From contig JAGONM010000014.1 of assembly GCA_017993055.1 (NCBI GenBank), forward strand, positions 1-64,000: a stretch of DNA of 64,000 nt, in the 5' to 3' direction. Below, one piece after another: positions 25,767 to 36,002 of this stretch (its first letter is position 1; the number at the start of each line of letters is the position of its first letter). This DNA comes from Armatimonadota bacterium (GTDB lineage Bacteria; Armatimonadota; UBA5829; DTJY01). A program made the position numbers and the translations under genes. The notes below the pieces were generated by a model. The model did no database searches, was not told the origin of the DNA, and saw only the letters and a list, made by a program, of their open reading frames with translations.

Positions 25767-27431
25767 CTAGTACCGCACGTAGGTGTAGTAGGAGTAGTCC
25801 AGCACCTTCTCTTCACCGGGCTTCAGCGCGACATCCCACTTGACCACGGAGGTAGGGTTGACCGCGCGGATCGCGACACCCATCTTCTCGGTCTTTCCTC
25901 CCAGGGTGGTGGATGTGACCTCGCCGATTATAGTCTTCTTCACATGCACCGTGACGGCCTTCGACTTGAAGCTCTTCAGAGTGAGCTTCCCCTCCGACGT
26001 TACCTTGGTGAAGCTGTGCCCATTAATGTTGATCGCGTCGTTCTGGCGCTCGGTTTCGAGTTCGCTCTTCTTGCCTCGGATGTCCGTGGCAACCGTGAGC
26101 TTGAGGTCGTTCTCGCCGCCTTTGGGAGTGTACGCGAGAGTGTCCTGCGCGAGCGGCTGTCCCTGAGACATCGCCATGCCCGGCGCGGTCGTCCACGGGT
26201 ACTTCGACGTGTTGGTCAGCGTCAGCATGTGCCAGACTTGGTCCTCAGCCGGGGGCGTTCCCGAGTTGCGGTTGGAGTCTACGTATCCGTCCGTCCTGAC
26301 TCCCGACGTATCGTTTACAGTCCACTTGTAGACGTGCTTGAACGGCACTTCGGCCGAGAACACGGTGTAGTACGCTCTTTCGCCCTTCTTGAGCGACACG
26401 TCCTGCATCTTGTAGAGGAAGAGGTCCTCCTCCTGAGCGCCGGGAGTCTCGCTCGTACTCGAATAGCCGAAGTCCGGCGCGCTCTCCGGACCCCCACCGG
26501 CATAGCCGTAATCGGCGCGGTTGTACATAACCGATTGGGTCATGACCGTGCCGTACCCGCCGGCGGGCGACTGCGGCCTTCCAAGGCGGTCAATGAACTC
26601 GGAGATGGACTGAGTCAGCGCGAGCGGCGACACGACATCGGAGTAGAGGAAGTTGGGGAATCCCACGACGAAGAACACCTCCGCGCCCTCGACGTCCTCG
26701 GCATCGTTCACGAGCAAGCCCTGCATCGTGATGCGCGCGCTTGTGTCATTGAGCAGTTCGACGAGGTATGCAGGCGACCACGATATGCCCTTCTGAAGAT
26801 AGCCGATGGTGATCGGCGCGCTCTCCTTCGCCCCTGAGATCTTGAACCTCAGCCGCTTGACCTTGTCTTTGACCACGCGGTCCGCGTTGGCCTTGCCCGC
26901 AAACTCCACGAGTGAGATCGACGCTTTCGAGACCGCGACCGTGCCGTTGGCGGTCTCGACCAGCACGAGGTCGGACGCGGGGCGAGGAACCGTCGAGACC
27001 ACATTGAAGGGCATCGGCTGGCCGGGAGAGGAATCCGTATCCACGGGGACCGCAAGGAGCTTGCCCTCGATCACGCGCTCTCCGTACGTGATCTTGACCT
27101 GCTTCCCGACGTTGGCTTCGAGCATATCCGCGACCGTCCTGGCGGGAACGGTGTGGGATGAGTCCTCCCTCAGGGCGAGCAGACGCTCGATGCTCACTCC
27201 CACCTTCGGGGACCCGACCCAGAAGGTCCCGAGTGCGGCCGGCGGGATGTAGTCCCAGAATGCCCAGCCTTCCCTGAGAGTAGCCGTGCCTTCCCTGATG
27301 AAGAAGCCGGTCCCGTTCTTGAACGCCGCGACGGAAGTCGTCCTCGCCTTGAGTGAATCGGTGTCTTGCGCCGCCGCAGGCATCGCCGCCAGAACCGCAA
27401 ACAGAATCGTCCCTGTGATCAACCTGTGCAT
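25767..27431 (-). CDS. secreted DUF4139-like protein
   Basis: This 554-aa exported protein starts with a signal peptide (ITGTILFAVLAAMPAAAQ). It has beta-rich regions, with a DUF4139-like segment around APITIGYLQKGISWSPAYLVE and a late strand-rich domain (LTLKSFKSKAVTVHVKKTIIGEV; VKWDVALKPGEEKVLDYSY). DUF4139 proteins are of unknown function and often outer-surface or periplasmic. ATG 27431 is chosen because GGGAGG lies 7 nt upstream; a TTG six codons earlier overlaps that site. About 100 nt upstream on the same strand ends a structured leader with its own promoter and terminator, so expression may be set by read-through. Confidence 0.6.
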   Translation of the reverse strand: MHRLITGTILFAVLAAMPAAAQDTDSLKARTTSVAAFKNGTGFFIREGTATLREGWAFWDYIPPAALGTFWVGSPKVGVSIERLLALREDSSHTVPARTVADMLEANVGKQVKITYGERVIEGKLLAVPVDTDSSPGQPMPFNVVSTVPRPASDLVLVETANGTVAVSKASISLVEFAGKANADRVVKDKVKRLRFKISGAKESAPITIGYLQKGISWSPAYLVELLNDTSARITMQGLLVNDAEDVEGAEVFFVVGFPNFLYSDVVSPLALTQSISEFIDRLGRPQSPAGGYGTVMTQSVMYNRADYGYAGGGPESAPDFGYSSTSETPGAQEEDLFLYKMQDVSLKKGERAYYTVFSAEVPFKHVYKWTVNDTSGVRTDGYVDSNRNSGTPPAEDQVWHMLTLTNTSKYPWTTAPGMAMSQGQPLAQDTLAYTPKGGENDLKLTVATDIRGKKSELETERQNDAININGHSFTKVTSEGKLTLKSFKSKAVTVHVKKTIIGEVTSTTLGGKTEKMGVAIRAVNPTSVVKWDVALKPGEEKVLDYSYYTYVRY

Positions 27432-27541
27432 CGTCCTGCCTCCCTTCAATTCGTCTCGCAGTCGTTTTGGTCAATACAGGCAGTTAGACGCAGTCGTCGC
27501 GAAGAACCTTCACTCAGTCCACGAAGTGTACAAACTAAGAA

Positions 27542-27563
27542 GGGGTCCGCTCACGCGGACCCC
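27542..27563 (-). terminator. rho-independent terminator of the structured leader
   Basis: GGGGTCCGC-TCAC-GCGGACCCC is a perfect 9-bp stem with a 4-nt loop. On the minus strand it is followed by TTCTTAGTTTG. It lies about 110 nt upstream of the DUF4139-like start codon. Confidence 0.7.
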
Positions 27564-27618
27564 GCACTGAATAAGGTGAACTGCCTCGAGGGCTCGTTCA
27601 TGACCCGAAGGCTAAAAC

Positions 27619-27654
27619 CTAGCCCCCAGCGTCACCTCTTTGACTATTTTCCAT
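27619..27654 (-). CDS. possible 11-codon leader peptide
   Basis: ATG 27654 is 10 nt after an AGGAGG core and reads MENSQRGDAGG before a TAG. A second frame begins at GTG 27662 and reads ATWKIVKEVTLGARF to a TAG at 27612-27614, but its start overlaps the ribosome site. Either could be a leader peptide; neither matches a family with confidence. Confidence 0.25.
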   Translation of the reverse strand: MENSQRGDAGG

Positions 27655-27717
27655 GTAGCCACCACCTCCTTATAGGATCGCCAATGGCGTTCGCTCCGCA
27701 CTGCGGAACGTACATCC

Positions 27718-27746
27718 AGTGTAACAGAACACGCCTGACCTGTCAA
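27718..27746 (-). promoter_or_regulatory. strong sigma70 promoter of the structured leader
   Basis: On the minus strand: TTGACA (27741-27746), a 17-nt spacer, TACACT (27718-27723). Transcription should start near 27711. Confidence 0.7.
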
Positions 27747-28157: not shown

Positions 28158-31100
28158 TCACTCTACCGCATTCGTATCCGGTTGTTCGCGTTTATCGGCT
28201 GCCGGGTCTGTCGGTTTCTCTACGCTTGCCCCCGGTGCTTGCCTCATCTCATGGTTTATCAGGTCAATGACGAACTTGTTCTCCCCGCCCGTCACCATCT
28301 TCACGACTGAGAGCGTCCGCGCCTCGTCGTATACCCATCCGATCGGCGCTGCTGATATGTCCTTCAAGAGATTGATTGCCTTCCCGTTCAGTTCGAATGA
28401 CTCCGGGCGATAGACGCCGCTGACCACGGCGTAGATCGTTGCTCCCACAGCATAGTTGAACTCGGACCTGATCCAGTCCATCGAGTAGTTCATTTTCAGG
28501 CTCTGTGCGGGGAGCGTCAACGTGAGCATCTGGGACTGGCGGTCGAGCACCTTCTGCGTCGCCGGCTCCGTGTCCATGCCCAACTCGCGCATGAGGTTTC
28601 GGGCGATAAGGCGCGGGTTGATATCCCAGTGGTACTGCTCCTTGCCGAGGATCGGGCTGAAGGCGTCCGGGTACATGCCGGCGTTCTGGGGGTATTCCTT
28701 CTTTGTGTACTGCTGCTGCTGGACCGCGCAATGGAGGATTCCCCGCGCGATCTGCTTCCAGGGCATTGAGCTATCGTGTTCCGCGAGCTTGTCGAGCGCG
28801 TAGCCGTATTCGAGACCGCACCATTGTACGATCACCCCGAACCACGGCTGCTTGTCGTACCATGTCGAGCCGAAGACCGGGATCGTTCCGTAGCGCATGA
28901 TCGGTTGGTCGGCCGCGCTCCAGAGGTAGACGAACGGCAGGCCCGACTTCGCCCAGTAGACTGCCCGGTCGAGATACCGCTTCTCGTCGGTGATTCGGTA
29001 GCCGTTCAGATACGCGGTCACGAGGTGCGCCGATGCCAGGATATCCGGCACGTGCAGAGGAAGCTCCCAGGTCTGCGCGCCCTCGGGTCGGGCCGTAGTA
29101 TCGAGAAATGCGAGTCCCTTGAGGCCGGCGTCACGGGCAGTCGCGTCTCCGGTGATGAGCGCGTGTTCCAGGAGTTCCTTTGACCGCAGTGCGGTCAGGC
29201 CGGACGAAGTGTCTCCGGGTGTCCCGAAGACCTCGTGCTCCTTGTCCGGCGTGTAAGCCCATGACCCGTCCTCGCGCTGGCTCTTGATCAGCGACTCTGC
29301 GTGCGCAAACGCCCTCGTCAGCGCCGCCGGCACGTCACCCGCATACAGCGCCGTGCTTAGAGGCAGGTCTGCCCTGACGGCTTCGATTGCCGGATTCACA
29401 ACCGCTGCGATCTCCTCGCTCTTCTTTGCGTCATACGTTCGGTTGTTGCGCGCGTACAGGTAGTTCGCGATCATAGCGTCGAAGCTCACCGGGCCGGTGA
29501 TGGTGTGGTTCCATCCCGCTTTATCCTTGATCCACGCGGTACCGAGGAACGCCTCCTCGCTCAGGTTCATCATCTCGTACGGCTTGAGACCTGTCTCGGG
29601 CGGCTCCGGGACGCCGTGTCGCGCAACCCACTCGCCGACCGCGTCGAGGATCGTCGCAGATTCCGACCGCACGCCCAGCGTAGCCTCCAGACGAAGCGAG
29701 TTCCCGGCCTCCAGTCTGAACGGCCTGTCCGCGACGACTCTGTTCTCCGGCGTGTAGTCCGGCACCGACGGCGCGAAGATTCCCATCAGATGGTTCTCCT
29801 GCCCGTCGAGGAAGTTCGGCGAGGCGAAGACCGATGCGGGACGGTCCGTTCCCGCCGCCCACTTCTGGAGCGGGTCCCACTCGAGCGTGACCAGCGTGCT
29901 TCCATTCCGGATGGCCATCAGCGGGATTGTGACCTTGTTCGGGTGCGGGACGGTCCGGAGGTTGTCCGGCGGATGGACGAACTCAGTTCCGGACGACTGC
30001 TCGGTCAACAGGTATTCGAGGCCGGGAAACAGTCCCTCGTCTTTTCTCGCGCCGAACCCGCCGTCTCCTGCGCAGACCATCGGCCCGGAGAAGTGGCCGA
30101 TGTCCAGCGGCTTGTCGGTCTTGACGGAGTGCGAGATCGAGACGTTCGGCCGATCGGGCTCCATCTTGAAGACCCATTCGAACGAACACGAGGAGTTGCC
30201 GACCTTCTTTCTCAAGTTAAGCGTGACGGAATCAGCATCGTTGTGGGACTCAATCGGACGCAGGACCTGCTCCTCCCCCTCGCCGGTAACCAGCCTGCCG
30301 AAGGAACCGGATGCTACCTGCTCCCACCCGTCGCCCTTGGGGATGTTTGCGGTCCACGCCGCGAACGCGTCGCCCGACCTCAGGAAGAGTATCCGAAGTT
30401 TCGGGTTCTGCAGGACTCTCAGGCCATCACCGAAGACGCGCGTGCTTACACTGTCTCCAGGCGGTCCCGGGTCAGTGGTGGGTGTAACGAGTGCTACCGA
30501 TCTGACAGCGCTCGGGCCTCCACCGTCCTTCGTGCTCAGCACGGCCCCCACGTACAGGATGCCCTTACTCTCGTCGGGAGCGAGAGCGCATTCGATGACT
30601 TTCCTCTCTCCCGAGAGCAGCTTGCCGATCGGCTGTGCCGAAATCTTCTTCATTAGAGGATAGCCGAGGTAGATCGGCGTCCCGTCGTCGTTCGCCGCGC
30701 TCTGAGCGAACTCGACCGTCGCGCCGTCCGACACGCTCAAGTCTCCTTCGCCGACGTTTCTGATCACCGCGCGGAGAGTCGCCGGTCTGTCCCTGTAGAT
30801 CAGGGCGCTCGTCGGCCCGAAGGACTCGATCTCGAGCGAAGGGGCAAACGCGTAGACTCCGAGTTCTGCAGCGCCGTGAGAGGTACTAACCCGTACTGAA
30901 TGAGCCCCGTCGGCGTTGAAGTCGAACCTTGCAGCAGCTAGTTTGTCCTCTGCCAGGGGTACGGTCAGAGACTCCCCGAGCGTCGCACCTGATTCGGCGA
31001 GTGGGAACACTGAAGCGGTGCCGTCGTTCTTGGACTTGACCAGCACGAGGCCGCTGGACACCGGCGCCAGGTCCTTGTCGAGAACGTTCTCGGACAGCCG

Positions 31101-31625
31101 CACGATCTGAGGAGTTCCCCAGTTCGCCCAGTCGTAGTTTGTGTTTTGCTTGCCCCTGCTGACCAGCGCGACCCTGATCTTCTTCCCGGCCCGAGAAGTC
31201 AGATCCGACGCGCCTTCCCTCCATCCGGGGTCTCGGACGTCCGTCTCGAACTCCTTCCTGCCGTTGATCCTCAACTCGAAAACCACTCCGTCGTACGGAT
31301 GCTCCGAATCGTTCGCCGGGATCCCGTCGGTCAGCCCGACGCCGCACACCAGAACCAGCTTCTCGCCGGACTTCAGCTTCGGCAGCGTGACCTCGTACTC
31401 CGCGACCGCATCGCCCGCTCCGGTAGGGTGAAGGAAGACGGACTTTCTCTCGATCCCGCCCGACTTTGCCTTCTTGGCGCCTGGTGACATCGCGTTCGAG
31501 ATCTTTGCCTCCGGGTAACGTTCGAAGAAATCGTAGACTACCGTCGCGCCTCCCGCGAATGCGGCCGAGGCGACGGTTGCCGCGCAGAACGCCGCTGTCA
31601 GCAGATGGGTTGTGTACTTGATCAT
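28158..31625 (-). CDS. very large secreted protein with CARDB-like and alpha-toroid regions
   Basis: This protein of about 1155 aa starts MIKYTTHLLTAAF with a clear signal peptide ending AAFAGG. The N-terminal third looks like a carbohydrate-binding beta-sandwich (GEKLVLVCGVGLTDGIP; FELRINGRKEFETDV). It is followed by a CARDB-like adhesion module (PATLRAVIRNVGEGDLSV). The C-terminal third is helical with squalene-cyclase/toroid-like repeats (SLIKSQREDGSWAYTP; LKGLAFLDTT). This suggests an exported glycan-active enzyme or binding protein; no family was secured. ATG 31625 has GAGGAG 8 nt upstream. The frame stays open far upstream, but that part is only antisense to trpB2. It lies downstream of trpB2 beyond a terminator. 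Confidence 0.6.
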   Translation of the reverse strand: MIKYTTHLLTAAFCAATVASAAFAGGATVVYDFFERYPEAKISNAMSPGAKKAKSGGIERKSVFLHPTGAGDAVAEYEVTLPKLKSGEKLVLVCGVGLTDGIPANDSEHPYDGVVFELRINGRKEFETDVRDPGWREGASDLTSRAGKKIRVALVSRGKQNTNYDWANWGTPQIVRLSENVLDKDLAPVSSGLVLVKSKNDGTASVFPLAESGATLGESLTVPLAEDKLAAARFDFNADGAHSVRVSTSHGAAELGVYAFAPSLEIESFGPTSALIYRDRPATLRAVIRNVGEGDLSVSDGATVEFAQSAANDDGTPIYLGYPLMKKISAQPIGKLLSGERKVIECALAPDESKGILYVGAVLSTKDGGGPSAVRSVALVTPTTDPGPPGDSVSTRVFGDGLRVLQNPKLRILFLRSGDAFAAWTANIPKGDGWEQVASGSFGRLVTGEGEEQVLRPIESHNDADSVTLNLRKKVGNSSCSFEWVFKMEPDRPNVSISHSVKTDKPLDIGHFSGPMVCAGDGGFGARKDEGLFPGLEYLLTEQSSGTEFVHPPDNLRTVPHPNKVTIPLMAIRNGSTLVTLEWDPLQKWAAGTDRPASVFASPNFLDGQENHLMGIFAPSVPDYTPENRVVADRPFRLEAGNSLRLEATLGVRSESATILDAVGEWVARHGVPEPPETGLKPYEMMNLSEEAFLGTAWIKDKAGWNHTITGPVSFDAMIANYLYARNNRTYDAKKSEEIAAVVNPAIEAVRADLPLSTALYAGDVPAALTRAFAHAESLIKSQREDGSWAYTPDKEHEVFGTPGDTSSGLTALRSKELLEHALITGDATARDAGLKGLAFLDTTARPEGAQTWELPLHVPDILASAHLVTAYLNGYRITDEKRYLDRAVYWAKSGLPFVYLWSAADQPIMRYGTIPVFGSTWYDKQPWFGVIVQWCGLEYGYALDKLAEHDSSMPWKQIARGILHCAVQQQQYTKKEYPQNAGMYPDAFSPILGKEQYHWDINPRLIARNLMRELGMDTEPATQKVLDRQSQMLTLTLPAQSLKMNYSMDWIRSEFNYAVGATIYAVVSGVYRPESFELNGKAINLLKDISAAPIGWVYDEARTLSVVKMVTGGENKFVIDLINHEMRQAPGASVEKPTDPAADKREQPDTNAVE

Positions 31626-31692
31626 CTTTTCTCCTCGGATAGAGCTTCCTGAAGGTTCATACGTTGGGAGGGCCGGTTTCGGCACAAGTTGC

Positions 31693-35925: not shown

Positions 35926-36002
35926 GGCCCGTTCGTCTAGTGGTCAAGGATACCTGGTTCTCAGCCAGGGGATCAGGGGTTCGAATCCCCTACGGGCTAC
36001 CA
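35926..36002 (+). tRNA. tRNA-Glu(CUC)
   Basis: A cloverleaf is readable. The acceptor stem GGCCCGT pairs with ACGGGCT (G-U at 1-72). The D arm contains TCTAGTGGTCAAGGA. The anticodon loop TTCTCAG has anticodon CTC (codon GAG). The T arm is AGGGGTTCGAATCCCCT. The discriminator is A and the CCA is encoded (36000-36002). It is a single-gene unit with its own promoter and terminator. Confidence 0.95.

Follow-up and report, generated by a model that had tools for sequence, protein, structure and literature searches.

The window, by which we mean the whole 64,000-nt stretch of DNA analysed (contig JAGONM010000014.1 of an Armatimonadota bacterium), carries on its minus strand a predicted RNA gene in which a sigma70-type promoter, a Shine–Dalgarno (SD) sequence, an 11-codon ORF and an intrinsic terminator lie close together (Table 1). 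An earlier sequence-only reading of this DNA had named a near-consensus promoter, a ribosome site, a mini-frame and a GC-rich terminator here, and all four proved to be real. Promoter-like sites numbered two in the region, where 0.2 would be expected, and the transcript start at about 27711 is predicted from the promoter. Folding of 27711–27533 gave −75.9 kcal/mol (z = −3.1), and none of 200 shuffles folded as well; this result, together with the phylum-wide conservation described below, bears out the earlier claim of a structured RNA. In most families only about 8 nt separate the predicted start from the SD. Within the SD, GGAGGTGGTG is invariant in an alignment of 24 sequences, and the canonical anti-SD, GGATCACCTCCTTT, is present in 26 of 61 Armatimonadota genomes; the 3′ end of 16S rRNA was not found in the window's own draft genome and was seen in relatives only.

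Table 1. Parts of the predicted RNA gene, in window coordinates
Feature	Position	Strand	Basis or remark
Sigma70-type promoter TTGACA-17-TACACT, TG extension	27718..27746	-	10/12 consensus matches
Whole RNA (predicted start ~27711, end past terminator)	27533..27711	-	Fold and homologues
5′ hairpin, extra sequence in the window copy between promoter and SD	27692..27710	-	Fold
SD AAGGAGGTG, 9 nt complementary to anti-SD	27663..27671	-	
Mini-ORF MENSQRGDAGG*, 11 codons plus TAG (ATG at 27654, TAG 27621-27619)	27619..27654	-	
Internal SD-like site GAGGTGA	27632..27638	-	
Closing helix P1, 5′ strand (ORF codons −6 to −1)	27621..27638	-	Fold; covariation in relatives
Closing helix P1, 3′ strand	27573..27594	-	Fold
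Module 5′ strand UUUUA	27613..27617	-	Invariant alignment columns
Module 3′ strand CAUGAA	27597..27602	-	Alignment; module duplicated in family f8
Alternative stop-codon hairpin GGCUA / UAGCC	27610..27624	-	Excludes module and part of P1; forced-fold energies
Intrinsic terminator, 9-bp stem with 8 G-C pairs	27542..27563	-	

A gene of 554 aa, codirectional with the RNA, begins (ATG at 27431) about 100 nt past the terminator, much as the sequence-only reading had placed it; the DUF4139 label which that reading attached to the gene reached a sub-threshold match only (E = 0.056; score 13.6 bits, cut-off 31.8). Upstream of the RNA, positions 28158-31646 encode a protein of ~1160 aa with no Pfam or NCBIfam match. 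The sole Rfam match of the window is a tRNA gene at 35926-35999.

Distribution and gene neighbourhood in the Armatimonadota

A BLASTN comparison of the window's own genome with 60 relatives (61 genomes in all) showed that a block of the form AAGGAGGTGGTG...ATG...AGTCAACGAGGTGA...GGCTAG recurs in other families of the class and of the phylum; since the block is kept across the phylum, the elements seen in the window are more than a chance assembly. A pattern scan of 84,980 genomes returned 25 matches, and the RNA is present in 21 of these. All informatively titled genomes among the 21 are Armatimonadota, and one is titled Chthonomonas calidirosea. The other four matches (L031, L047, L051 and L054), outside the Armatimonadota, lack the rest of the RNA and were discarded as chance.

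Three covariance models were used. The model built from 24 sequences (R1) found the RNA as a single copy in each of 66 of the 291 Armatimonadota genomes; R2, built from those 66 copies, found 91, one genome having two copies; and R3, built from ten distant sequences only, of families f16 and f34, matched 100 of the 397 genomes, every one of them from the Armatimonadota, and recovered the window locus at E = 8e-4. Taken as a union, the R2 and R3 lists place the RNA in at least 127 of the 291 Armatimonadota genomes and in 17 of 45 families, at essentially one copy per genome, and among the 106 outgroup genomes the covariance models matched none. Many Armatimonadota families have no match, which may reflect loss or limited search sensitivity. 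Two genomes of the window's own family (G002 and G004) matched none of the models, and recent loss is possible there. The sole two-copy genome carries a diverged second copy (L177, G077:C1:1066578-1066732) encoding the peptide LTNDRIQGGGEV.

The genes that accompany the RNA differ between families. Downstream of it lie greA-lysS in f1 and f3 (the name lysS rests on sequence only) and mraZ-rsmH in f11, while a ferrochelatase gene in f8 and a lipoprotein-like gene in f27 are convergent with it; overall, 27 of 66 loci have a convergent ORF as the nearest one downstream, and in others the downstream gene is hundreds of nucleotides away. Directly upstream, 62 of 86 copies have a promoter that agrees with the consensus at 10 or more of 12 positions, compared with 0.8% of random segments, and a terminator-like site was found under a strict rule in 66 of 86. 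The changing neighbours and the 27 convergent loci argue for an independent RNA gene and not for a leader of the DUF4139-like gene, and these sequence comparisons show the RNA as a gene with its own predicted promoter and, usually, its own predicted terminator. The sequence-only reading had offered an attenuator or riboswitch or, alternatively, a stand-alone sRNA, and it is the stand-alone branch that the differing neighbours favour; of the conservation that it sought upstream of DUF4139-like genes, the hairpins and mini-frame are indeed kept in relatives, whereas the DUF4139-like context is not. The position of greA, upstream of the RNA in f16 (L198-L227) and downstream in f1/f3 (the L092-L157 neighbourhoods), suggests that greA on either side in distant families marks an ancestral neighbourhood, and a functional link between the RNA and greA is possible.

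Searched with Rfam 15, neither the window nor 20 homologous loci from most families gave a match at the RNA that reached the gathering score, the best sub-threshold match having E = 2.2, and no description of this RNA was found in the literature and databases searched. Short ORFs are common in free bacterial sRNAs (PMC5521070), and free RNAs with short ORFs are known; the novelty lies in the RNA family itself, which appears to be new. On the evidence searched, an undescribed RNA family spans much of a phylum, and because the lineage includes the assembly titled C. calidirosea, a cultured species, the RNA should be testable.

The mini-ORF, helix P1 and the UUUUA/CAUGA module

An SD followed by an ORF of 10–14 codons is present in all 86 copies parsed, with ATG as start codon in 79 and TTG in seven. 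When the peptides are aligned at the stop, most copies read S-(Q/L)-(R/Q)-G-(D/G/E)-x-x-(G/S)-stop, and the main mini-frame of the sequence-only reading (M...SQRGD..G*) is both right and conserved. Distant variants include MDYSLRGDEQG, MSSHSLRRDLAG, MDHSLQGGGEG-like peptides and MDDHSRGGCGG, with ...QGGRGF in f16; the variable positions are 2-3 and −3 to −1, and the peptides have no signal or hydrophobic stretch. Codons vary while the frame is kept, serine being encoded by AGT or TCT and arginine by CGA, CGG or AGA, and TAG, TAA and TGA interchange as stop. The mean excess BLOSUM score of codon substitutions was +0.67 in frame 0, while the two other frames scored −0.15 and +0.04, but shuffling letters within nucleotide columns gave the same score as observed, so that the test shows frame-specific column constraint and not selection on residue identity as such. 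From these sequence patterns, the mini-ORF is very probably translated. Other coding possibilities were considered and rejected: the alternative frame (ATWKIVKEVTLGARF), likened earlier to a RiPP precursor, ranges from 3 to 39 aa in relatives and is conserved in neither length nor sequence; inspection of the sequences for programmed frameshifting or readthrough at the stop revealed no conserved downstream frame; and a second ORF beginning at the conserved AUGAA is cut short by stops or altered in relatives.

RNAalifold, applied within families, independently arrived at a pairing between the ORF's second half and the strand just past the module, which forms helix P1 around a UUUUA...CAUGA internal loop; in the f27/f1 set, alternative hairpins were preferred over P1. 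Covariation among homologues, the check that the sequence-only reading had proposed, was found for P1 and the module in f16/f34, f17 and f11/f30. For f16/f34, an alignment of 30 sequences that had been fitted to the structure gave 57 double-change cells, compared with 15.9 ± 3.2 in shuffled alignments (0/500 shuffles) and at most 21 with slid partners, and an unfitted alignment of ten sequences gave 20 compared with 7.7 ± 2.1. Corresponding values were 23 against 9.6 for f17 and 10 against 4.2 for f11/f30 (0/500 shuffles in each case). Duplex z-scores of P1 against mononucleotide shuffles are moderate (median −1.9), and the case for P1 therefore rests on covariation. The module strands are among the invariant columns of the 24-sequence alignment, and the inner helix of the module covaries in f16 and f17. 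In f8 loci (L148, L157 and others) the module occurs twice in one RNA, interleaved, the second copy having its strands swapped, and this duplication suggests a putative binding site. Use of the module elsewhere as a protein site was considered and rejected: 21 genomes had the pattern, and 20 matches are this RNA, the remaining one (L235) being without ORF and SD. In f7, f15 and f20 the SD, the ORF and, by eye, P1-like pairing are kept and the module is absent; this reduced form is seen at L183 (f7), L187 (f20) and L193 (f15), with peptides ending ...RGDCGS, RGDCGG and RGGCGG, respectively.

Two further features centre on the stop codon. In 13 of the 15 families parsed, all but f25 and f2, the 8-nt stretch with the strongest SD-like character is positioned alike in most copies, with its end 9-10 nt ahead of the stop; in f25 the internal site is no stronger than its synonymous controls. 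In f16 the stop now lies within the UUUUAG of the module, and the internal SD has shifted along with it, so that the register is kept. The amino acids account for part of the signal, since an average of 22% of synonymous recodings reach the strength of the internal SD. Judged by the usual spacing of SD and start codon, a distance of 9-10 nt could let the SD retain a ribosome whose A site is occupied by the stop codon. In addition, a hairpin can form between codon −1 plus the stop codon and the UAGCC of the module (GGCUA/UAGCC; parts of f11 and f25 have GGUUA/UAACC instead), with at least 62 of 72 cases paired at every one of its five positions. The two competing folds are nearly equal in the window (−75.9 versus −75.8 kcal/mol), and forced-pair folding of 59 copies gave a median difference of 2.1 kcal/mol. 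Overall, sequence comparison shows that the RNA gene is ancient, that its ORF is under selection and that its fold is conserved.

Proposed mechanism, alternatives and known systems

We hypothesize that this phylum-wide RNA of ~180 nt carries its ORF within its fold, that the ribosome switches the fold and that the RNA acts in trans, a reading on which we place about as much weight for as against. With the 11-codon frame forming half of the main helix, a translating ribosome would have to unfold the RNA, opening P1; held near the stop by the internal SD, it would keep P1 and the module broken and the module strands apart, and once it had gone, P1 and the module could form. Display of the module would in this way report translation or termination activity, and the RNA would act in trans, the likeliest route being a partner that binds the module. 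The peptide may contribute too. The switch and the action in trans are what we infer, and not what the comparison itself shows. More speculatively, and with more doubt than belief on our part, the RNA could represent a new housekeeping-like class of bacterial RNA, a stand-alone sensor of translation termination in which a dedicated ORF of ~11 codons, with its second SD, parks the ribosome near the stop codon, and the parked ribosome in turn builds up or takes apart a module that binds a protein or ligand and acts in trans.

Other explanations place the function in different parts of the RNA. The peptide might itself be the product, the RNA being a very short mRNA for a functional peptide of 10–14 residues (...S-Q/L-R-G-D/G-x-x-G) and the helix merely tuning its translation; a residue pattern kept in the 15 families parsed despite codon changes, behind a very strong SD and promoter, speaks for this, but the module and the 3′ strand of P1, which lie past the stop, are conserved by sequence or covariation, positions 2-3 and −3 to −1 of the peptide vary and it has no signal or hydrophobic stretch, so that we regard this explanation as rather unlikely. 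We consider it unlikely, too, that the RNA is a ribosome decoy, whose extended SD, internal SD and short ORF would trap 30S or 70S particles and so buffer or shut down translation: such a trap would be well served by 9 nt of pairing with the anti-SD and by a further SD placed 9-10 nt ahead of the stop, but taken by itself it does not account for a module that is conserved and, in f8, duplicated.

Two remaining explanations dispense with either the ORF or the independence of the gene. That the RNA is purely noncoding, its frame a by-product of helix constraint, is in keeping with the pairing that constrains codons −6 to −1 and with a column-shuffle null equal to the observed score; we nevertheless hold it to be highly improbable in view of 86 in-frame ORFs out of 86 with a correctly placed SD, the interchange of three stop codons and, in f16, a stop that moved together with the internal SD. 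Most improbable in our estimation is a cis-acting attenuator or riboswitch of the downstream gene (DUF4139-like in the window): a codirectional gene does follow at ~100 nt in the window, as do greA-lysS or mraZ-rsmH in some families, but which gene lies downstream depends on the family, 27 of 66 loci have it in convergent orientation, elsewhere it lies hundreds of nucleotides off, and no conserved terminator/antiterminator alternative was seen.

The fold-switching RNA that we favour shares features with several known systems. Like dual-function sRNAs of the SgrS-SgrT and SR1-SR1P kind, it is a stand-alone sRNA gene with a short ORF, here predicted to be translated; it differs from them in that the ORF is one strand of a conserved closing helix, an internal SD stands at a fixed distance from the stop and the gene is single-copy across the phylum. 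With leader-peptide attenuators (the trp, tna and erm kind) it has in common a strong SD, a short ORF and mutually exclusive hairpins at the stop codon, but it has its own terminator, convergent neighbours and no conserved codirectional gene directly downstream. The terminator in the window folds apart from P1 and the module, and by eye no conserved partner for its arms was seen. As in tmRNA, a short ORF lies inside a structured RNA, but in this case an SD and a start codon belong to the ORF itself, and RF00023 (tmRNA, including the tRNA-like domain) has no match in the window. In being a single-copy structured RNA of ~180 nt it resembles 6S RNA, from which it differs in having an ORF; RF00013 (6S RNA) likewise has no match in the window. 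Identity with either RNA was rejected, as both genes are present elsewhere in the genome, a separate 6S RNA at G000:C5:18998-19183 (79 bits with RF00013) and a separate, normal tmRNA on G000:C42. In prfB-type internal Shine–Dalgarno elements, an SD-like sequence acts on the ribosome near a stop codon. The RNA described here also has an SD-like sequence near its stop codon, but with a spacing of 9-10 nt and with no conserved frameshift product. If the switch reading is true, a stand-alone RNA would sense the progress of the ribosome on its own tiny ORF, and would sit between attenuators, dual-function sRNAs and tmRNA.
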